A stretch of 64,000 bases of DNA from Bryoerythrophyllum caledonicum (lineage: Eukaryota > Streptophyta > Bryopsida > Pottiales > Pottiaceae), in NCBI GenBank assembly GCA_963971425.1, contig OZ020515.1:12168291-12232290 (forward strand), in the 5' to 3' direction. A program made the translations under genes and the position numbers. The notes beneath the pieces are model-generated. The model searched no databases and had not been told where the DNA came from. It was given only the letters and a program-made list of their open reading frames with translations. Numbering within the stretch: position 1 is the first letter of the stretch; every line of letters begins with the position of its first letter. Shown here one piece after another: positions 1-39,206 of the stretch.

Positions 1-153
1 CTTATATAATGTAGGGTGTCTTTTTAGTATATTAGGCATGGGTCCCGGGTTGGTTTCTATGTCTCCTCCTAGAAGTAGTAGGAGTTTGTGATATGTATGT
101 TTAGTGCTGTATTTTAAAGTTTTTGTTTTATGTATAATTTTTTGAGGCTTTGT
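1..153 (-). pseudogene. LINE ORF2, N-terminal end with 2A motif (cut by window edge)
   Basis: On the minus strand a frame open from 153 to the window edge reads through a leucine-rich run and then GGDIETNPGP, followed by MPNILKRHPTLYK. The second LINE copy at 31767 has the same order: leucines, GGDIEKNPGP, then MPNIIKTHP. The match of both the 2A core and the following residues shows that this is the start of the same ORF2. The downstream endonuclease and RT would lie left of base 1. The frame is closed upstream by TAA at 154-156 and has no Met before the 2A, so the real start codon or link to ORF1 is unclear. This is the 3' continuation of the ORF1 copy at 1398-3526. Family membership is secure by comparison of the two copies; function of this copy is unknown. 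Confidence 0.8.
40..84 (-). other. 2A-like ribosome-skipping motif (LINE copy 1)
   Basis: Codons 84 to 40 on the minus strand read LLLLLGGDIETNPGP, followed by Met at 39-37. This fits the canonical 2A consensus D-x-E-x-N-P-G-P with a hydrophobic leucine stretch before it. In known 2A peptides the ribosome fails to form the Gly-Pro bond, so that two proteins come from one frame. 2A-like motifs are known at the N terminus of some non-LTR retrotransposon proteins (trypanosome L1Tc/ingi, sea urchin elements). Activity here is inferred from the motif only. Confidence 0.85.
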
Positions 154-1397
154 TATGTTATTAAAATCTTGTTTGTTTGGGGGTAGGTGGGTGTTTTTAT
201 TTTGTATGTGGGTAGTGAGTTTTTTTTTGTTCTTGTTTATAGTGGGTGTAATTGTAGTCCTCGTTGACTTTTTTTGTGTCCATGCGTTTATGTGCGTAGT
301 TGTTTTTGTTTTATTAATGGTGTATAGGTGTGTGTATGTTTGTTTGTGTATTTTTGTGGTTGTGTTTGGCCATGTGTGTATGTGATTGTTGTGTTTAAGA
401 ATTTTTTTATGTGAATTAATAATGGTAGTGAAGGAGGTATTGAGGACGTCTTTATATGTAGGTGTGTTAGTGTATATGTTGGGGTTTATATAAGTGTTTG
501 TTTTGATGTTTGTGTTAGTATGTATGTTTTGGTTCAATGTTTTATGTGTATTTTTTGGGTATTCTTTTGGTTTATTGTTTGTGGTTTTAGTGTTTTTGTT
601 GTGGTTAACGGGGGTGGGGTTTGGTTGTAGATGTGTGTATAGTTGGTGTGGTGTGGTGGGGCGGTGTAGTATGTTTGTGGTATATGGTGTTTTGATTTTG
701 GGGAGTATGTGTTTGTGAGAGTGTGTGAGTGGGAGAAGGTGTCTAGCTTTTTGAGTGATGAGTATATGCGGTAGCGTATTTTGTGGTTGGTATTTGGCTT
801 TGCGTGGTGTTTCGATGAGTGAGTTAGTTATTAGTAGTGTTTTGTACTCTATTAGTACTGTGGTGTGAGGGTGTTTACATGTGTCGCTTGTGGTCAATTG
901 CTTTTGTTGTTGGCAAAGTTGTGGTGGTATTTTATGGTTTTTGGCGTGTGGTATGTGTGTGGTAGTGGAAATTTTGGTAGTATGCCAATGCCATTGGCAA
1001 TGACAAGAAGTGTGTATATTATCGTCGTGGTATTGAACATATAACTTTGTCATATGAGTTAGAGGAGCCCACGGGAGAGGTTGTGGCCTTCTCATGGGTT
1101 TATACTCATACCAATGACATGTGTTTACAAAATACCTATTAGAAGCTAAAACAAGTTCTAGAGAGGTAGAAAGTATAGAAAGAATAGGGTGGGTAGTAGG
1201 TGTATAGAGAGACCAATAATAAGTAAATATAGTGAGATATATCACTAACAATACTATTGGAAGGAGGGGGAAAAGGGGAGTGCTAAGGTAGATAGACGAG
1301 GTAATGGAGATAGATGCAACTACCAATGGAGATGTAGCTAGGTAGGTAGGAGTTTGGTGATCGCCATGTTGTTGAAGAGATCGTGGGCGGTCGTTGG
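154..1397 (-). other. LINE inter-ORF region, A/C-rich on the coding strand
   Basis: The interval lies between the LINE ORF1 end and the 2A start of ORF2. On the minus strand it is strongly A/C-rich, like the LINE ORF2 coding strand; on the plus strand it appears as long G/T runs (about 155-960). No minus-strand frame of useful length remains. Either it is a true spacer or a decayed part of ORF1 or ORF2. The plus-strand frames in it are low-complexity Val/Phe/Cys-rich and not credible genes. Confidence 0.5.
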
Positions 1398-3526
1398 TCA
1401 ATCCACGTTTGACGGGTCATCCAAGGAGGGGAGGGATGGCTTTTCACGATTGGATTTGATACCCTTCATCACAGACAGAGCGACACTCATTAGTTTCTCA
1501 ACATCATCAAGTTTCGAGTATACCTCGGCGTTGCGGGCGTCGGTGTATTCTCGAGTCTCTCGAATGATATCCTTCTTGAGAGTGTATAACTCCAAGCGGA
1601 GTTTTCGTGACCATCCGCCACAATAGCAGCCATCTCGTCACGTATGTTGGTGGTGGGAACGATGGTGGGGTTGATGGCGGCAACCGTGTTCACCAAGGCG
1701 GTGTTTATGTCGTTGAATCCCCATTTCTCCACCAAAGTGGTGGAGGGGGGATCAATGCCATCAAGGCTACGGCGGTGGGGTCGAATCTCAACTTGGTGGC
1801 AACCAATGTTGAAGGTTTGGTGAAGGTATTGTCTATAGACAACAGGATTAGCGACTTGCACGTTGGCAGAGCCATTGTGCTTCCCTTTAATCTGCTTGTG
1901 GAACCAAATGTTCACAATGCTCTTGGCCTCCAAAGCTTTCGTGATGGCCTCCGTGGTTTCAACCACGCTCAACAGGATTGGTAATTGAGATAGCGTGAGT
2001 ATGAGCGCATCCTTCTTTGCCCTATCACTGGTTGTAAAGGTTCCAGAATTGCTGGGCTTCGCGGGGATGATCTCATGGAAGGTCGTAATCTGGTGCATTG
2101 CTAGTTTCTTCGCTTGGGTAGGAGTGGGTGCTACAATCCATGCAAATGGCTCCTCGTGTTTCTGGACATCAGTAATTTCAAACTCAAGGTTACGGGTAAA
2201 GCCATTCAGAACCACGTTGTAAAACAATGTATGCGCATGAATACCACATAAATTGTCACTCTTGATGTTGACAGATAAACCTTGTCAGGCCACTACATGC
2301 CGTGTTTTGCAAACTTTCCCCATGGTAACCGGTCCCATAGGGTCGAGTTGCAATATAAAGTATCTTGTTCTTTGAAGTAGGGAGATGGCATCAATTTCCG
2401 GGTAGAGCAAGTGTAGTTTGATCAAGCCTGAGAAAACATGCTTTTGTCCTTCCTTCTTCACTCCTTTGCAATGGATGGCAAGGGAATCCAAGAGGCTAGT
2501 ACCAAGGGGGATATTCATTTTGGTAAGCCTATTTCTAGCAAGCCTTTTGACCTCATCGTGAAACAATGGGGTCTTAGGCAGTTTGAACAAGATGGCCACA
2601 TGGAAATTGTATGATAGGCCAGTGTCAGGGTTCGTGGGGATATCGAATGGGAGTTGTGTGAGGTTGTAGTGTTGCCCTGGGACACCGTCTTCTCTCACCA
2701 TGGGATATACCATTTGTGGGATTCGGGGGTAGGATATTATAGCATTAAGGGTCTCTTCCGCCTCTGCCTTGGGTACTCCTCTGGTCATCATATCCGCTAC
2801 ACTTTCTCCACTAAATAGTGGGTCAAGGTTTGCATCCTTCGCAAGCTTCTCCATGTTGGGGAAGCCCAACCAGAAGCGGGGCGTGGGTTGGTCTAGGGTG
2901 CTACTGCTAGGCTTTGGGTTTGGGGTACTACCTCTTTGTTTCTTTGCAGGGTGTGGTGCTTCTAGAAGGTCAAAGGTGGCGGTTGTGTTGGTAGGGATTA
3001 CCTTGGAGGTGGATTCGCCGTTCTCTATGTCCATGGCTTCGGTGGTAATGCTAGGTTCTCTCTGGGGTTGTTCCATAGTGTCCCTGGGGTCTATGGATGA
3101 AGTTTGTTTTTTGTGGTCAGGTGATGGGGGGAATGAGGTATTAGTCCTCCGCTTCTGGTTTGTTCTAAAGAATGTGAGAGGGGTGTCCTCTTGGTCGTCT
3201 GAGAGGTGTGTTGGGGATTCTAATTGTAGTTGTTGGGGTGGGGTAGAGTTTGCCTCCAAGGTTTTCTTCTTCCTACCTCGTGTTTTAGGAGTGGGGTCGT
3301 GCTTCGGGTTTGGGGTTGTTGATTTCCTCACAGTTGATGGTCTTATCTTTGAAGGTGTGGCTTCAACTCTAGGGGTATTGGTAGACTTGGCTTGTCGTAG
3401 ACGTGGGTTGTTTTTGGGGTTTTCTAATAGCTCTTCACTATTGGTCCTCCGATGTACTTCTACTCCACTATTCTTCTTTTCAATGGTGTTGCGAGGAGTG
3501 GATTGGCACCGTTTTCCAGGACTCAT
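1398..3526 (-). pseudogene. LINE ORF1 (gag-like), interrupted
   Basis: An ATG at 3526-3524 opens a minus-strand frame that runs to a TGA at 2287-2285 and then continues in the same frame to about 1600, where a frameshift moves it to the frame ending at 1398. The first ~220 residues are a basic, Pro/Ser/Thr-rich disordered segment (start MSPGKRCQSTPRNT). A conserved-looking globular part follows (FWLGFPNMEKLAKDANLD, then LHLLYPEIDAISLLQRTR), continuing past the stop as LFYNVVLNGFTRNLEFEITD. The end (MELYTLKKDIIRETREY) looks helical or coiled-coil. No CCHC knuckle or RRM can be recognised by eye. Its place upstream of the 2A/ORF2 start on the same strand makes LINE ORF1, an RNA-binding chaperone in known elements, the best reading. 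The in-frame TGA and frameshift suggest that the copy is dead. Confidence 0.65.
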
Positions 3527-4972
3527 GCAGTTTTGTCGGGCTGTACTAGTGGTGGAGAGGTGGAGGGTTAAGTATATGGAGAGGGAGGTTGGAGAGAGGG
3601 TGGTGGGAGGTAGTAGGAGAAATATTAGAGGAGGGGGGAGGTCGAAAATGGGGGGGGGAGGTCACAACTTGGGGGGGAAGGAGGTCGTAGGAGGAGATAA
3701 AGGAGTCTGTGGAAGGTCGCAGGGGGAGGGGGGGGGTCGTAGGGGTTTAGGAGAAAGGTTGCTAGGGGAGGGAGGTTGGAAAACAGGGGGGGTCGTAGGG
3801 AAGTGGGGGTCGGTAGCGGGGGGGGGGGGTCTCTGGGGTGAGGTAGATTGTCGCGGTCAGGGGGGAGGTCGGGGGCGGGGGGGGTTGTGCTTTCGGCTGT
3901 GGAGGTTTGTTGGGCCTCAAGGTTCGTGGGGGGTCGGTAGGTAGTGAGGGGGTCTGTAGCTAGGGGGGGTAGGTCGAGACCAGGGGGGGAGGTTGGTGCC
4001 AGGGAGTGTCGCAAGTCGTTCCGCGTCTGTGCACCTTCTGTGCGTGTCTGTATTTCTTCTCTGCGCGTCTGCTCTCCGTCTGTGCCTGCTTGATCGTCTT
4101 CGTCTGAGTGGTTGAACGTCTACGTGGTCTTCTTGTTCGTGCTCTACTGTTGTATACCTTGTGCGCGCCTCTCCTTGCCTGTCCGTCTGATCTTGTTCGT
4201 GCTCTTCGGTTGTTCTTCTTGTGTGTGCCTGTCTCGTTTCTTGCTCGTCTATGTTGTGTCTGTGTCTAGTCGTGATTCGTTTCTTGCTCCTGGATCGTGC
4301 CTGTCTCGCTCTTCGTGCTTGTCTATGGGTGTTGGGGTTTACAGGGAGTATAGGGAGCTGGATGGAGTGTGGGGAGGGGGCACCTGTTGCGGTGGAGGAG
4401 AGGTTGCATAGAGGTTGCACGAGTGTTGAGAGAAAATATGACGGTTCTGTAAGAATACTTACTTGGTTGGTCCGTGATCTTGTTTGTTCGTGCTCTTGAT
4501 GCGCTTGCTGCTGTGTTGTTAATATTTGACTGTTGGTCGCCTGTCGCAGGTCGTCTCTAGGTCGATTGTCGCTGCTGTTGATGATCTGTGGGGTCTTGGC
4601 GGTGTTGCAGGTTGTTCGTGAGTGCGCGCGAAGTGATTTTGGGTTGATGTTGCGGGCTCCTCGTGCGCGTTGTGTGGATCTGCAGAAAATTTTCCAGCAG
4701 TGCCGCGTGCAGCGTGTAGATACAAACGTCCTAATGTTGTGCCTAGGGATTCTAGGGTTAGTAGCAGGGTGATTGTGCTTAGTGCTGTGGTTAGTGTGCG
4801 TGAGAGCTATTGTGTTGTGACTAGTGTATGTGGAGATCCAAAATGTGTAAAAGCAATGAGATGAGTAAGAAATAGCCTGGAATGGTGAGAGGTTGTTGCC
4901 GGATACTAGCGTCGCGTTGATCTGGTGCTCAATCTTGCGTGTATGATGCGGTCGTGGATCAAGGAGGATCAA
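3527..4972 (-). promoter_or_regulatory. Probable LINE 5' region with G-run and TCGTG-type repeats
   Basis: This GC-rich stretch precedes LINE ORF1 on the minus strand. The plus strand has many G runs of 4-10 bases between about 3630 and 4000, with recurring GGGGGAGGTCG-like units, and degenerate repeats around TTGTTCGTGCTCTT-like words at 4100-4500. A minus-strand frame over 3917-4972 is Arg/Thr/His-rich and looks like a composition effect, not a gene. A 5' UTR with internal promoter is the simplest interpretation by position. The exact 5' end of the element is not visible. Confidence 0.45.
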
Positions 4973-5457
4973 GGACTAAGTGGTGGGCGCAGATCTCGAT
5001 CTAACTACACTCAATCTGAACAGATCTAAGGTTGAGGAGGGTCATTGAGTTCAGATCTATGCACAACACTAGTTTCCCACGCTTCAAATAAAACTTGCAA
5101 CAATCTCCCTCAAAGACCTGACCACAACCTCTCAAAAAGTCCAGATCTAGTGTTTTGAGCGCTTCCAACAAAAGTGATCTGCCTCCCCAACCTCACCAAC
5201 GTCTAGATCTCGAACAATGTGGGCTCCCAATAAGGCCATCAACCTCTTACTGCACATCCCTCAAGATTATAGACTAGGTCCTTGTGCCTCCCCTCACCAC
5301 GAATTGCGGAGCTCACTCTCTACACATTCTGTTATCCCCGTTCATTCCACCCGGACCCCTGCAATTTCTATATAACTCCGGCCAACCTCTTCCTAGCATG
5401 TTTAAATTTCACACTCCACCTCATCTTCCAAGTCATGAATATGTTCATTGCCATTAG
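4973..5457. other. Unassigned spacer between two LINE copies
   Basis: AGATCT occurs several times (about 4990, 5025, 5055, 5145 and 5205) in a mixed-composition stretch. No coding, RNA or repeat identity was recognised. The LINE homology of the next element begins near 5458. Confidence 0.4.
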
Positions 5458-5970
5458 TCGGACCAGTAATACAAACATTGACAACAAACTCTCCACCAAA
5501 TTTTGGGAAAATCCCATAATCACGGATTCACAAAAAACATGCGTCATCAAATTCCGCACCGGACAATATATGGGAAACGCCCGTAAACAACTCTTCTTTG
5601 GCACAAAAAGAATTCCCCTCCATAACATGTTCAACACTCTGGACTCAAACACATGGTTGCGGGTTTTACTCAAATGCCATAATCCTCATATACACGCCCT
5701 AATTCTCATATACACGCCCTAATTCTCATATACACGCCCTAATTGTTAAACGCCACAACATAGCGGTATGGGCAATCCGCAAATCAATCGTGTCATCAAA
5801 CAAATCCTGTTGCTTCACCCTCATGCATGCCAAAACTTTTAACGACAACCCGCAAGAAAACATGGTTCCCCTATGGTTATTACCATACACATGCGGTACT
5901 CAAAGATGTCATTGTACTGCAAAATTTAAACCCAACCTATTATGTGTTAAAGGGCTACCATACAAAGACA
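5458..5970 (+). pseudogene. LINE ORF2 C-terminal fragment (copy 2, left part)
   Basis: The translated segment matches the C-terminal part of the LINE ORF2 at 37950-38430: shared words include NPxITDSQKTC, TGQYMGN, KQLFFG, LLKCxNxHIH, CGTQRxHC and KGLPYKD. The frame changes near 5722, after a short tandem duplication of AATTCTCATATACACGCCCT (about 5700-5745). The homology stops abruptly after GLPYKD at about 5970 and resumes at 9857, so an element has inserted here. In this family the region follows the RNase H domain and contains a Cys/His zinc-knuckle-like motif. The copy is 5'-truncated and cannot encode a functional protein. Confidence 0.8.
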
Positions 5971-31154: not shown

Positions 31155-31766
31155 ATTGTCAAAAAAATTGTGTCTTTAGTGGAAAATAGCATATTAACCC
31201 ATGTCAAACATTTTTACACATTGTCACACATAGTCGGACATGGTACCAAAAAACTTCTTTTCCATATAAAACTTAAGAGGTTTTCACATTTTTTATTTTT
31301 ATTTTTTTCCACAACAATTTGTGATATAACCCTTCTTGTTGACCATTTGGATTATTACTCTAAATCATATCAAGTTCACCAGAAAAAATGTGAATTGACA
31401 ATGTTTTAACCTCTACTACTTGCACAATTGTATTGAACATGCTACACCTCTTTCCTACCTCTGAAAATTGGTGTACAAGGAACTAATATCATGTTCGACA
31501 TGATGGTATTAAACACATACCATATGTAATGTAGAAGTTTGACACCAAGTGGAGTCAAAGTCTGCTGATCCTCTCAACACTAATAATAATGAGTTGTTAT
31601 TTCTACTTCAAATACTATAGTCTTTCAATTTGTGTGGTAAAAGTTTATGAAATTTTGTGATTATGTTCTACATACACAATAGCATATATCTATACTATTC
31701 AAAAAATAATAACAGAAATAAAAAATCCAAAGAAACAACAACAACAACATCCACAACCACAACCAA

Positions 31767-31811
31767 CTTCTAATACTTTTTGGTGGAGACATTGAAAAAA
31801 ACCCCGGCCCT
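31767..31811 (+). other. 2A-like ribosome-skipping motif (LINE copy 4)
   Basis: Codons 31767-31811 read LLILFGGDIEKNPGP, followed by ATG at 31812. It matches D-x-E-x-N-P-G-P with upstream hydrophobic residues. It is in the same frame as ORF2 (ATG 31863), with one TAA (about 31848) between. The frame is closed upstream at 31719, and no Met precedes the motif. Confidence 0.85.
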
Positions 31812-34800
31812 ATGCCAAACATAATAAAAACACACCCCGCAGCCCATTAAAAACACGCAAAAATGTATTTTATACCAAGTACTATAAAAATGCACCTCGA
31901 ATATCAACACCTCGCTAGCATATTTGCCCCCTTGCTAAAAAACACACATAAAATATACAACACATACAACATGACATTTCCACATATAGCACACTACATC
32001 CAACTAAAAAATGCACATTCACCATCACACATTTTCTATGCCTTAATCGTCACTATCCACCCCTCACTAGACGAGTACAACCAAATCTTAACCCTACAAG
32101 ACATCAATACAACACAATGGACTAACACCCTCTTAAACAACCTAGCCACCCTACCCAACCCGCTCAAACGACATATTAATACAAAACATCCGTACACAAA
32201 ATTCCTAGCAAAAAACAAAAATATCATTCTGCATAAAGACTCCATACACAAACAAATATACAACTTCATTCATAGTCAAAACTCACCTCCAACACAAAAC
32301 AAAATCCAACTACACTTTCCATTTCTCCCGCATGAACTAATTAGAGAAACAATAAGATGTTGTGAACCCATTCCAGAATATACACACCCACATCCACCAC
32401 CCCCATACATCCCCTCTCTAAATCACAACACATACACCATAGACATCGACACGTATATCTTAACATGGAACTTCGCATCCCTAAACATTGCTCTTCTATG
32501 CCTCCAAAACCTCATCACATGTACAAACACCCCTTTGGTGGTCATTGCCATACAAGAAATCAAACTCACAGCCATTAAATCTACTAAATACATACAAAGA
32601 ATTTTTCCAAACTATGAACTTATTTTCAACAACATCCATGCATTCACACGTTGCATCCAACAAGGCATGCCATACACAGCAGGTTGTGGTGGTCTTCTTA
32701 CTCTAATACACAAATCCTACGCATTCCCAAACAACATTATTCAAATTCCCACACCCATGCATATATCTCTATTTTTACAAATTCTAAAAATTAAAAACCA
32801 ATCCCTTCAACCATGGCTGCTATTTCATATCTACATGCCAACCCACCTAAAAGACATTAGACTCATTCCAAACATTAAAAACACTATTGCCACCAAAATC
32901 AACAACAACTAAAATCACACATACTTAATGTGTGGTGACTTTGATAGAGACGTTGCTCTAATTGGCAGACAACACGGAGATCACCTCTTCCCTCCACAAA
33001 CCACTGACCACCATTGGCGCACCTTAACTAATAGCCTAAACTTTACATACATTTCCATAGACACAACATACTCTAGACAAGGCGGCTATGACAGTAAAGA
33101 CCTTAGTCTAATAGTTGGTTTTTACATATATAACCCAAACCATACACAATATATCTGCACAACAAAAACAAAAGCTATTCTCAACTCTGACCACTTACCT
33201 ATCCAATTAAACATCCCACAAAACATACTTACTAGTAGAATGTATACAACACCAAATCATGAAAATACCCGGATACTGAACCCCATCCCAAAAACTAACG
33301 CCCAAAATTTCAACACAATGTTCTTTGAAGAAAACTCAATTCTAATAGACTCCCTCATTAACTATCTAAAAAACAATGACCAACTCTCTTAGAATCAATG
33401 GCTTTAAATTTGCAAAACCCTAGACACTCTAATAAATAATATCTCCAATATTCTAAAAAAAACTTGTAAAGCTCCATCCATACTCCAACTAACACCAAGA
33501 GCATCCAAACAAGGAGGTTATCTACCATGAAAACTCTAAAAAAAGTGGAAACAACAATTAACCACCTACCACACAATTTGAAAAACAATTCAAATTATTA
33601 AGAATAACCTACAATGGTTCATCTACTCAATTTGCTAAGAAATACAAACCCTTCAGCATACACAAATCTTGCCTCTACTTCCTTCCCAAACATCACCAGA
33701 GAATGGTTACATGATATTGCAATAATTGCGAAAGAGGCCAATAAACAAGCCAAAAAATTAAGTACCAAATTTGCCAAAGAAAATATCAGAAAAACCATCT
33801 CTAAATTTAGACAATTATGTGAAACTAGCCCAAAGAAAATTAACAGAAGAGTCTTTAAAAACAATGAATCCTCACCGCTAAACTGTATCACCAATCAACA
33901 TAACATTATCTTAACTAGCCCTAAAGACATCGCAAATGAGATATATAACTAGCAAACAAAAAATACCAGACCTATCGTATCCACATGCAACTATTTACTA
34001 GACTACCCACCAACATGTACATGTGTTGTAAGACAATATTCATGCCATAACCTCGACGGCTTGACTATACATAAAAGGGGTGAATCACAAATCCCACTTC
34101 ACACATACTTTAACAAAGCCGCATACAATACATGCCTCAAAAATCTGGGAAACAAAAAAATTCCAGGGCCAGACCGCTCCATATTAAAACTAATGCTCCC
34201 AAAATTCCACAAACTTCTCTCCCTATTTTTCTCATACTGCTACAAACAAAAACAAATCCCCGCCTCATGGAAAACTAGCTCTACAGTGTTACTATATAAA
34301 AAAGGTGACCCCTCAATGCTTTCCAACCATAGACCAATTGCCTTAGCCAACACTATCTATAAACTCTTCACAAGCACAAACACTTCCATAGTATCCTTGT
34401 ACAGAGAAAAACACCAAATCCTACACGACAGTCAAGAAGGCTTTTGTGCGGAAAGAAGTACTGCTAGACAACTCCAAACCATAATAGCCGCACTTGAAGA
34501 CGCACAATTTACAAATTGAGACATATATATTCTATATATTGACTTCAAAAACGCATTTGGCTCCATTGACTAAGAAAGATTACTAGCAATTATGTCTACT
34601 CTTGGATACTCCACAGACGCACTTGCACTAGTTGGAAATATCTACTCTCACTTGTCCACCTCATATGTTGGAGAATATTCCGGAACAACACGTCCCATCC
34701 CCATACAACGTGGAACTATACAAGGGAATACTTTAAGTCCATATTTATTCATTATTTTCTTAGAACCTCTACTAAGGTGGATGCAAAGAGGAAATAACGG

Positions 34801-35697
34801 CTACACCTTTGGAAAATTACAAATCACCATAAACTCGGCCGCTTACGCTGACCACCTTGCCGCTTTTGCTGGTAAACTCAAATCACTACAAATCCAACTC
34901 AATAAAATTGACAAATTTTGCGAGTGGTCCGGTATGGACGTCGGCATCCAAAAGTGTGCCGTCACGAGATGTCCAAACAAATCCAAAATGAACCCCACTG
35001 CATTTAAAGCACTTATGCAAACCGCCAACATCAAATACCGTAACCAACCCATCCCTATACTACATCAAAATGAAGCATACATATGTCTTGGCACAAATCT
35101 TGTTCCCTCAGTAAAGTGGAAAATACAAATTCACATCACTATTGCTAAACTTATTAAACAATGCAAAGAACCAATAAAATGCCCGGCCACTATGAAACAA
35201 AAAATTAAAATGGTAGATACCGTACTTAGACTAGGAGTAGCATATAGCTTCTACGTAGTCCCATACTCCATGCCTGCCAGAAAAAAATTGAACAAAAAAA
35301 TCATAGCCATAGAAATATCCATTTCTGGCCTTCCAAAATGTATGTCAAACGTCATAACTCAACTCCCACAAAATTTATTGGACTAAAAGCCTATTTCCTT
35401 ACAAATGCTTACCTCCGATGTATAGGAGAACAACTTCAAAATGCACTCAACGACAAAGGTAGACCTAGCAAGATCTACGAAGGACTCACCAACTTTATCC
35501 TCGCCAAATATGGTGGTGCTAAAAACATTCCTAGAATTAACAAAAGTGATTGCATTGGATCACCAATCACCCGTACATTTTTTCTACTAAAAAATGAAGC
35601 AAAATTTTACCTAAAAAGCACACTTGAGGATTTCTTCTCAGAACCCTCACCTTTGGAACAAATGTGGCTACAAGAAACCCAAAATGACAAGAATTAA
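31812..35697 (+). pseudogene. LINE ORF2: endonuclease and reverse transcriptase part
   Basis: After the 2A the frame gives an N-terminal extension, then an apurinic-type endonuclease: LTWNFASLN near 32460, IAIQEIKL near 32550, GCGGLLTLI near 32685, CGDFD near 32930 and SDHLPIQL near 33190. Reverse transcriptase follows: KKGDPSMLSNHRPIAL (34300), QEGFCAERSTARQL (34435), motif A YIDFKNAFGSID (34540), motif B GTIQGNTLSPYLF (34715) and motif C AAYADHLAAFA (34845). Motif C is YADH instead of YADD, so a catalytic Asp is lost. Stops (TGA 34517, TAA 34571) and frame changes near 33390-33610 and 35340 break the ORF. The frame changes from 33614 onward are too few to obscure domain order. Confidence 0.85.
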
Positions 35698-37246
35698 CCA
35701 ACACCTCTTCCAAAATAATTTATAAAAACTTTTATCATAAAATATTACGGAGTTAAAACAAATTACACTCCCAAACGGAACACACATTATGAACCACAAT
35801 GACTTCAAAACATATCATGCTACACCGTCCAAACTAGTAAAGAGTGCCCTTAATATTGCCCAACAACTATTTTGCTACCCCACATGCCCTAATGCATGCG
35901 TTTCACTGTGTTCCACACATCCAAACCCCTACACATTTAAAGACACATACATCACCACCAATAACGACATACAACCCAAAAACAACCTTGGCTAACTCAA
36001 GCCCCCCCCAACACTCCGCATCCACTCCTTCCTCCCCCTAACGCACATCCTCAAAAACCCATCCACATACACCATAAATCTCATCCTTGACCATAAACAT
36101 AGAAAGTATATAGACTCAAAACAAAATTATGAAAACTGATACCAAATATTTATGCCAATGGCAACTCAATAACAATACCTACAACAAATGGTTACTCCAA
36201 CGGAACCTCTTCCCATGGCATGACCAAAACACCTCTATCCATAACTCCACACAATTGACACAATATTAATAAAACACACAAAACAAGTATACCACCTCCA
36301 AGCGCAAACTTGTGACTCAATGTCCGTTACCCCATCCTTAATTATTCCCCTCCTCAATATATACACAATTGAATGCAACCCAACAAAGACATTCTCACAG
36401 TACATTATACAATCAATGTTAATGAAGAATACACAAATATTTATGAAGACAACGGGAGGCATCTAATCACTATCCACGCCACTAAACTCGAATGGTTATG
36501 GAAATAATACCATAACAAATTGCAAACCCCCACAAATATAGAGCCATTAATCCAACCATTTAAAACTAAAATAGTTTGGCAATACCAAAGATACAAAGAT
36601 TGCATTCCAAAAAATGACCTCCTTTAACTCGCACATTACACATTACCCACGCCCATTCTAGACTCACTAATTTCATCTTTTAACATCCAACACTCATACT
36701 TCTCATTCCTAATCACATGCCCCACCCAACTTACCAAATTCCACTCACCTTTCAATAGAGACACAATTTTTGGTTCACTAGAAAACGCCTTTGACCACAA
36801 ATGGATTGGAAACAGTATTGCACACCCCCACAATATAGAAGAAACACAACAAGCAATACATTTGGCAAGACTTGCGGCCGAAAAAAACCAAACTCTACTT
36901 CCACTCTTATCATCACATTAGACAATAATTGGTACCAAAACTTTAAGCCACACTTAGGCCCATTCCCCGATTCCCACATCATAGCGCTATTTAAGGCACA
37001 TACAGTACCATATGAAGAAACCACCCAACCACCTGAATTATCAAATAAACCCAGGCTCGAACCATCTATCATGCAAATAATATGCATTCACCATCATTAG
37101 AATAACATTGGTACCTCGGAACAACTTACCACACTTATATCCATAACAAATAACCTCAACATAAGCCAAATATACACAAAAATAGTTCCACCTACACCTT
37201 CCCAAACTCCAGTGAACTGTATGAAAAAAATGGTCAAATCTTAAAC
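35698..37246 (+). pseudogene. Decayed linker of LINE ORF2 between RT and RNase H
   Basis: The sequence keeps the A/C-rich coding-strand composition of the ORF2, but no frame over 112 codons remains on the plus strand. By position it should encode the RT C-terminal region leading to RNase H. Minus-strand frames here (for example 36752-37087) are shadows. Confidence 0.5.
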
Positions 37247-38800
37247 ATGCAAACACAACACAAACCCACCTCGCTACACCACCCCTCCCCATATATCGTG
37301 ACCACACCTCCTTTAAAATTTATCCCTGCATATAGTTACTATACATATGGTTCCTTCAAAGAACCAACAAAAGTCAGTCCAAGACATTGGCATAGAGAAA
37401 AAACTGGATATGGTATATACAACTCAATCAAAGAAATCAAAATATCCAAAACACTCCACGGACTTCAAAATATCCATAGAGCAGAAATGATGGCCCTTCA
37501 TAAAACCCTCCAAATTATCACTACACAATATGCTAATGACCCGCACACACCTTTACAGATTTGTATAAACATATTATACCTATTAAACACACAAATAACA
37601 CACCCTACCCTTAAAAATAACCACCCGAACCAAGCCATACTAACATCTATGGTTCAAATCTTACAAAATTGCACACAAATTACAACCCTCCATAAAGTTA
37701 AAGCACATGTCAATATAGAAGGAAACAAACAAGCGGATAAACTAGCCAAAGAAGGACTAGGTAAATCCCATAGAAATGCCAAGCACCCACATGAATACGC
37801 CCATGCCACCCCATACCACTTTCAAAGAGAAAGTTGGTCTTCTATGGAAGACACTCCGGACAAAGGCCCTATTAGATTTTTGGATAAACACCTCAAAAAA
37901 CAAGATTTAATTAACAACCTCAATCTAATATTAGAAAACTTGTCCAACATAGATAAATGGACCGGTAATAACGACATTGATATTGAACTCTCTACAAATT
38001 TTTGGAAAAATCCGACAATCACAGACTCACAAAAAACATGCATTATCAAATTTTGTACTGGACAATATATGGGAAATGACTGCAAACAACTCTTCTTTGG
38101 GATTGAAAGTTTTCCATTCATAACATGCCCAAAATGCACATCCACAGACCCAGACACATGGCTATATGTACTCCTCAAATGTCAAAACCATCATATACAC
38201 TCTCTAATCGTCAAAAGGCACAATATAGCGGTATGGAAAATCCGTAAACTAATAATATCCTCCAACAAATCACGATGCTTTATACTTATGAACATCGGAA
38301 CCTTCAACAACAAACCACAAGTAAATACGGTCCCCTCATGGCTACTTTCATGCAAATGTGGAACCCAAAGATATCATTGTAATGCCAGATTTAAACTAGA
38401 CATACAATGCATCAAAGGACTACCATATAAAGACCCCCACCCGGACCACATTAATTCAAACCTTACTATCCAATTTATCAAATTCAAATATTGTAATGAC
38501 AAATTTTCTCCAGAAGCAATCAAAAACAAAATGAACAAATACCAACCACTTATTAATGACATTACAGCTCTTGGATGGAAAGTTGACCCCCTTATTGTCA
38601 TTGCCGCTAGAGCTAGAGCTACTACCTTTATCCCCTCTATGAAAAGTCAAGAAAAAACATTCAATGTCCCTAGTAATCCAATTAAAAATACATTCACAAA
38701 AATTAACACCATAGCTATCCTACTTGCAATGTTCATTCTTCAACATAAATGCAAACTAGAAATCAACCAACCTCTCCTAGATTTACATGGTACACCTTAA
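37247..38800 (+). pseudogene. LINE ORF2: RNase H and Cys/His C-terminal region
   Basis: A 517-codon open stretch contains an RNase H-like domain: YYTYGSF (normally TDGS; first Asp lost), AEMMALHKTL with the Glu kept, ICINILYLLN where the second Asp is absent, and HKVKAHVNIEGNKQADKLAK with the terminal Asp kept. The following region has CPKCTSTDPDTW, LLKCQNHHIH and KRHN, a Cys/His knuckle-like motif usual at LINE C termini, then KCGTQRYHCNARF. The same C-terminal region occurs at 5458-5970 and 9857-10016, which confirms family membership. Loss of two catalytic Asp residues suggests that this RNase H is inactive. Confidence 0.8.
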
Positions 38801-39052
38801 AACCTCTCTAAACACACAGTTAATCCTACAAGTCACTTCTTGGAATGGAGCCATGTGGCTCCTGTTGGTCCTTGGTCTCTGGTAACTAGTTACTGGCTAT
38901 TGGTCCTTAGTTACATAGTGTCTACCCTCGAAAGGTAGGAGTAGTTCCATACCACTAAACCTATGTCAGGTAGACATGTATTTAGTAGTGGAACGAACAG
39001 ACACTTTATTCACTCGGCCCCCCTCCTTTGAGGACAAGAGTTCTTCTTCTTC
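38801..39052 (+). repeat. LINE 3' UTR/tail with two hairpins and (TTC)4 end
   Basis: After the stop at 38798-38800 comes a short UTR with TTGGTCCTTGGTCTC-like direct repeats, then the conserved tail from 38916. Hairpin 1 is CTACC/GGTAG (38922-38938) and hairpin 2 is ATGTC-AGGTA-GACAT (38963-38977). It ends in TTCTTCTTCTTC at 39041-39052, directly before the target-site duplication. Confidence 0.75.
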
Positions 39053-39206
39053 TTGTGATTATGTTTCTTAATGATAAATAGTAATTTAGATCCTACAATT
39101 ATAATTAGAAATATAGTTTTTTCTTTTGTTTCTTAATCATTGCAGTGGAATCAACAATTTTGAAGTGTTCTTGATGTAAAATTGTCATAGAAGTTTAGAG
39201 ATTTAA

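Follow-up and report, generated by a model that had tools for sequence, protein, structure and literature searches.

A conserved 2A-like sequence ahead of the endonuclease in an APE-type LINE family of the moss Bryoerythrophyllum caledonicum

In work of 2006 Heras is said to have described a LINE with a 2A sequence, L1Tc of Trypanosoma cruzi. This element has a single ORF of the layout APE-RT-RNase H, which begins with the 2A. In 2013 Odon reportedly found 2A sequences in APE-type LINEs of multicellular organisms, in this case animals. The available part of a further paper treats 2A in LINEs as known, and names trypanosome and sea urchin (PMC5972666). As far as its accessible text goes, a 2026 survey of viruses (PMC12846837) gives no natural use of StopGo by plant viruses, and describes motif 6, a leucine-rich StopGo example, as active in vitro. 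Among the literature matches listed we found no account of a 2A sequence in a plant LINE, a result that the Rao 2025 survey could change. While 2A in LINEs is already known, the plant layout described below, in which the 2A follows ORF1 and a spacer, looks new.

The window, that is, the whole stretch of 64,000 nucleotides analysed here, carries the reported motif within a LINE insertion (Table 1). An earlier note had placed the motif directly before a Met, and translation indeed gives LLILFGGDIEKNPGP followed by ATG (31812–31814); its DIEKNPGP conforms to the core (D/G/C/N)(V/I)ExNPGP. The insertion bears the signs of a target-primed LINE (13-bp target-site duplications, 5' truncation and a (TTC)n tail), and its homology to five other copies spans approximately 31687 to approximately 39057. 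The motif had also been claimed to be in frame with an endonuclease-RT ORF. It does share the reading frame of ORF 31863–32912, the first half of the APE endonuclease, but a TAA lies between the two and the RT is in another frame. Beyond this TAA there is one further stop, and there are frame changes ahead of the RT. Because of the TAA and the later breaks this copy cannot make a 2A-enzyme fusion and is dead; the skipping and the frameshift entry predicted for the family are both lost from it. Pfam matched neither the endonuclease of the window copy itself (PF14529 matches weakly in the sister copies L008 and L010) nor the RT part 33953–34516, nor was there a Pfam match for the window frame 36795–37097, which overlaps the PCIF1_WW-like segment, or the matching piece of L010. 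Homology to L009, a close relative, starts only some 60 nt past the ORF1 stop of L009, so that the window copy is without ORF1; given this 5' truncation, its motif merely appears N-terminal. A small extra fragment of the 3' part of the same element lies at 5460–5969 (+) (79% and 74% identity).

Table 1. Features of the two LINE copies in the window (window coordinates unless a contig is named)
Feature	Position	Strand	Basis or remark
Second, better-kept LINE copy at left window edge	1–4975; C2:12158400-12168390 (L012)	-	
2A-like peptide KLLLLLGGDIETNPGP of left-edge copy	40–87, GGDIETNPGP at 40–69	-	
Spacer frame upstream of left-edge 2A	70–1416	-	stop-free
ORF1/ORF2 junction block TCAAACGTGGATTGA; candidate -1 shift site	1398–1412; ORF1 stop TGA 1398–1400	-	
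ORF1 region of left-edge copy	1398–3661	-	one stop and one frame change inside
Target-site duplication, left copy TTGTGATTATGTT	31655–31667		
LINE insertion bearing the reported motif, degenerate, 5'-truncated	31668–39052	+	13-bp target-site duplications; homology
2A-like peptide LLILFGGDIEKNPGP	31767–31811, core DIEKNPGP 31788–31811	+	translation; Met next
In-frame TAA, 12 codons past motif	31848–31850	+	reading of frame
APE-type endonuclease (ILTWN ... QEIKL ... CGDF ... SDHLPI), broken by a stop	32457–33209	+	motifs by eye
Reverse transcriptase, different frame, broken	33953–35383	+	PF00078 E 8.4e-12 on 34574–35383
Counterpart of PCIF1_WW-like domain of left-edge copy	36628–36918	+	by eye against L012 match
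RNase H domain; Cys-rich region at C terminus	37154–38797	+	PF00075 E 4.2e-9
Target-site duplication, right copy TTGTGATTATGTT	39053–39065		

The left-edge copy has no stop in the 472 codons from 1416 to the window edge, with 26 and 29 stops in the other two frames. From the Met after its 2A the order is endonuclease (PF03372/PF14529, both below the cut-offs, with Exo_endo_phos at E 1.4e-4, and motifs also by eye), RT (RVT_1, E 2.1e-26), a PCIF1_WW match above the cut-off (E 1.7e-10) and, after one stop, RNase H (E 2.1e-9). Based upon the RT match, the endonuclease match below cut-off with its motifs by eye, and the signs of insertion, the family is an APE-type LINE. Pfam offered nothing convincing for ORF1, nor for the other window ORFs tried. 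Among PDB sequences the RT of the left-edge copy is nearest to R2 (108 bits), with no L1 match at E 0.01, and that of L010 scores 80 bits with R2 and 45 bits with L1. Membership in the plant L1 clade was rejected, the RT being nearer to R2 than to L1 in this comparison with PDB sequences only. A search of PDB with the APE fragment found nothing, and two scans of viral contigs with the RT found no relatives.

The PCIF1_WW domain occupies aa 1584–1716 of the translation of L012:4777-9930 (-). The cap m6A methyltransferase belongs to this domain family and has an NPPF motif; the LINE family has AHPHN in that place, and its PCIF1-like domain may for this reason be inactive. No LINE with a PCIF1-type domain was found among the literature matches listed.

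Pattern searches were run on the whole genome (437 Mb in 894 contigs). The strict form GGDIEKNPGP has six matches, including the window motif, against none for its reversed control, and the core D[VI]ExNPGP has 880 + 837 = 1717 matches against two for the reversed pattern; a chance origin of the motif was rejected on these controls. The first 30 core matches, which all lie on contig C1 and are not a random sample, were cut out, and in 30/30 the core is followed by MPN and the same ORF2 N-terminal domain. In three of them (L023, L025 and L027) a frame change follows soon after; in L039 the domain is cut off by other sequence. Copies were also collected independently of the motif, with 73–74-aa stretches downstream of it as queries and the best 150 matches per query. 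The count was confined to the part of C1 that the core-match list covers, below 34.24 Mb (three C1 matches per query, one of them common to both, lie beyond it and were uncounted); there the exact core stands upstream in 15 of 17 copies (7/8 and 8/9), in one of them out of frame. That a LINE of a plant carries a 2A-like sequence, conserved in many copies as the earlier note had asked for in support, is thus borne out.

Codon usage was analysed in 34 unique copies (of 37) chosen by a pattern which fixes most of the core, and all 34 have DIE[TK]NPGP, with Thr or Lys at p15. The residues ahead of the Asp are mostly K-L-L-[LI]-L-L-[GSC]-G; p10 is Gly in 22, Ser in seven and Cys in five copies, and p11 is Gly in 33. 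M-P-N follows the core in 32–33 copies and Met alone in 33. The family consensus is [LI]L[LI]LL[GSC]GDIE[TK]NPG/P, the slash marking the bond presumed to be skipped, or, with the start of the enzyme, [LI]L[LI]LLGGDIETNPGP-MPN. Each core position uses two to five different codons, that is, there is synonymous variation. The pN/pS ratio is 0.05 in the core, a value partly forced by the search pattern, and 0.06 in MPN, 0.45 in the hexapeptide before the Asp, 0.53 in the six codons before the hexapeptide and 0.40–0.55 farther on. The agreement with StopGo motifs 2 and 6, in which a leucine-rich hexapeptide ends in (A/S/C)G before the Asp, is partial: the leucines and the Gly at p11 fit, p10 being mostly Gly.

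The position of the 2A relative to ORF1 was read in 11 copies which have both an ORF1 end and a 2A; L046 has no recognisable ORF1 end, and L007 and L011 were left out of the count. Relative to the ORF1 stop the motif is in the -1 register in seven, in three at +1 (L008, L009 and L049) and in one at 0 (L057+76); L010, with a different ORF1 end and its 2A in the ORF1 frame, stands outside the 11. An N-terminal layout like that of L1Tc/ingi was not found, the 2A lying behind ORF1 and spacer in those seven. Between the ORF1 stop and the 2A the -1 frame has no stops in L053 (366 codons), L048 (395) and the left-edge copy (445), two stops in L052 (518) and L051 (609), and one in L050 (722); in the chimeric L047 the 2A follows at 1022 codons with 89 stops between. 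The placing of the motif at the start of ORF2 could therefore not be upheld, as it is found 366–445 stop-free codons past ORF1 in three copies bearing that gene.

Among 30 copies with an identified ORF1 end the -1 frame is stop-free over the stretch covered in 21, and the other frames in none. The stop totals in 9080 codons are 140 for the -1 frame versus 498 and 475 for the others, and 118 of the 140 come from L047 and L049. The nine exceptions are L008, L009, L047, L049, L050, L051, L052, L057+76 and L061. Since the 30 copies are kin and several are nearly identical, they do not amount to 30 independent tests of the frame. Twenty loci were selected blind to the 2A, from 150 listed, by a long ORF1 frame and a spread of identities. 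In 19 of the 20 the -1 frame is stop-free over approximately 157 codons, the exception being L061; stops were counted from the junction block except in L057 and L066, which enter from a single-locus count and are elsewhere joined to longer stretches. In one of these, L066+L077, the -1 frame has no stop in 574 codons versus 35 and 49 in the others, and the 2A is not reached. Overlapping frames in the -1 register, as a frameshift layout would have, are thus present.

The explanation which we favour, with a probability of about 0.6, is that the family carries a 2A/StopGo site which frees the endonuclease-RT protein from upstream translation and which is probably reached by -1 frameshifting off ORF1. 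We infer skipping from the class to which the sequence belongs, and arrival by frameshifting is likewise deduced. The ORF2 frame would open at the ORF1 stop codon in the -1 register and run through a low-complexity spacer, the Leu-rich 2A/StopGo, endonuclease, RT, the PCIF1-like domain and RNase H. The majority of ribosomes would terminate at the end of ORF1, and some would shift -1 near YCAAAC and then read through the spacer. Skipping of the NPG/P bond would release an ORF1-spacer-2A product, after which the enzyme would start cleanly at Pro-Met-Pro-Asn. If active, such a site would explain how ORF2 protein is made separately although no AUG close by is conserved.

The junction carries the block TCAAA[C/T]GTGGATTGA, with variable flanks, in 24 of 30 copies and in 20/20 of the ORF1-selected loci. 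Different subfamilies (TCAAACGTGGATTGA, TCAAACTAA, CCAAACTAG, TCAAACATGTGA) have only YCAAAC in common just before the ORF1 stop, and this is common to all ten copies in which the end of ORF1 was located by its last residues. Genome-wide, TCNAAYGTNGAYTGA has 366 matches versus 18 for the reversed pattern; among 78 matches listed, 55 are TCAAACGTGGATTGA and five differ from it solely by GAC for GAT. The change from GAT to GAC is double-synonymous and evidently tolerated, so that conservation of the junction may partly be plain coding in two frames. Against frameshifting speaks that the slippery heptamer X_XXY_YYZ is not matched at the site, which reads N UCA AAC or N CCA AAC. Downstream, a consensus stem is weak (z -4 versus column shuffles) and folds of single copies are mixed, with z from -7.4 to +1.1 in ten copies.

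The main rival to frameshifting is reinitiation: StopGo would be real, and ORF2 would be entered by termination-reinitiation nearby in the -1 frame or by internal initiation at an AUG of the spacer. The available part of PMC5972666 reports termination-reinitiation for the LINEs SART1 and L1, and the type-A junction block ends in UUGA, a -1-frame UUG overlapping the stop; this UUG is missing at the junction in L051 and L053, YCAAAC on the other hand being shared. The first AUG of the -1 frame varies among copies from codon 6 to codon 329, which also speaks against this rival, and L053 has none between the ORF1 stop and the 2A, so that ribosomes could reach its 2A only by coming from ORF1 or by starting at a codon other than AUG. 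L045 and other copies without ORF1 do need some other start. Reinitiation or internal initiation seems to us unlikely.

We consider quite improbable a reading along the lines of the earlier note, in which the 2A would form a short leader at the N terminus, have an AUG of its own nearby and serve as a leader that is cleaved off or as a signal peptide, like those of sea-urchin NLRs. Dual-function N-terminal 2A leaders are published (PMC4981915, as excerpted), and in L004/L009, which is related to the window copy, an ATG in the same frame stands, by eye, 18 codons ahead of the Asp of the core. In the three ORF1-bearing copies noted above, however, the motif lies deep inside a stop-free frame, and L053 offers no AUG before it. 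A signal-peptide role in particular is disfavoured, because the hydrophobic stretch, five to six residues long, lies internally in the copies with ORF1; as the general case, an N-terminal signal peptide was rejected.

Somewhat less credit still is due to the idea that translation of the peptide yields a fusion with no skipping, and that a role within the protein, such as that of a membrane or hinge element, accounts for its conservation. Conservation alone is no proof of skipping, and a leucine run could be structural; against this stand the exact match to the NPG/P core, including the Gly before the Asp, while the region upstream is free to change, and the activity of 2A in plant cells (available text of PMC4981915). 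That ORF2 starts at the Met after NPGP, the 2A being untranslated DNA, would suit the prevalence of that Met but is scarcely credible, as the core codons vary synonymously around unchanging residues, to some extent an effect of the search pattern, and the leucines and Gly before the core are conserved outside that pattern.

Some observations on the spacer speak against the reading that we favour. Over its first 450 nt dN/dS is 0.78 in frame versus 0.88 and 0.75 out of frame, and within one subfamily 0.59 versus 0.79 and 0.68; the ORF1 tail has 0.25 in frame versus 1.00 and 2.01. A codon-position count, muddied by microsatellites, gave no third-position excess upstream of the 2A. The amino acids of the spacer are under little or no constraint. 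We read the spacer as a stretch that would have to be read through and whose product would be discarded, as a 2A at its end would permit; on a sceptical view it might not be translated at all. In some subfamilies (L008, L031, L048 and L053) the spacer is filled by very long trinucleotide arrays, which in the frame of the 2A give poly-Asn, poly-Tyr or poly-Gln.

One might go further and propose that in this LINE family of a land plant each message combines two recoding events, a -1 shift off ORF1 and StopGo before the endonuclease; we hold this combined proposal tentatively, at a little under even odds. In it the spacer would be free to mutate, recombine or be replaced, because the 2A would always give the enzyme the same clean start, and 5' ends, even ORF1, could be swapped or lost. 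The 5' ends of L044, L045 and L047 are chimeric. Ahead of their intact 2A stands another, degraded one, which reads GGDMETNPRP in L044 and L047 and breaks off after GGDI in L045, as would result from the joining of two elements 5' of the 2A.

In 33 of the best 150 copies listed the open frame has the same length, exactly 3087 aa, which suggests a very young burst. The single member read, L045, shows by eye 5'-leader-like repeats and no family ORF1 ahead of its 2A, and L044 likewise shows no family ORF1 there. Judged from L045, this young subfamily seems to lack ORF1 and yet to retain the 2A. Frameshifting off ORF1 could then not be its route, and its ORF2 would start otherwise.

With regard to the assembly itself, intact psaA/psaB are present on two plastid-like contigs, C821 and C894, whose psaB differ by 9%. 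Both psaB have their best PDB matches in chains 7ksq, 6l35 and 8htu, which we take to be photosystem I of Physcomitrium patens, in keeping with a moss or near bryophyte as host. Two chromosomal plastid fragments are 98% and 96% identical to C894 versus 89% and 88% to C821. A second plant seems to be represented in the assembly.

If the sequence is active, the approximately 1700 matches of a conserved core of StopGo type that the genome of this one bryophyte contains would represent natural use of StopGo in a plant, and moss LINEs would then supply 2A variants for plants that have been tested by evolution. Like L1Tc, the moss LINE has its 2A in frame with the LINE enzymes, and like the elements of Odon 2013 it ties a 2A-like sequence to an APE-type LINE. 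Unlike L1Tc, in which the 2A is N-terminal, it carries the 2A behind ORF1 and a long spacer frame, and its host is a land plant. The linkage of a 2A core to a hydrophobic stretch recalls the 2A signal sequences of sea-urchin NLRs, as excerpted in PMC4981915; those are N-terminal and dual-targeting, whereas the moss 2A is internal in copies with ORF1. With StopGo motifs 2 and 6, so far as given in the accessible text of PMC12846837, it shares the leucine-rich hexapeptide, Gly at p11, Asp at p12 and ExNPGP, and it departs from the residues favoured there in having mostly Gly at p10 and Thr or Lys at p15. The combination of both types of recoding in one message has a parallel in the StopGo and -1 frameshift of cardiovirus (available part of PMC5009743). 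There the shift comes after StopGo, whereas in the moss LINE, which would offer two successive recoding signals for experimental test, the proposed shift would come before it.
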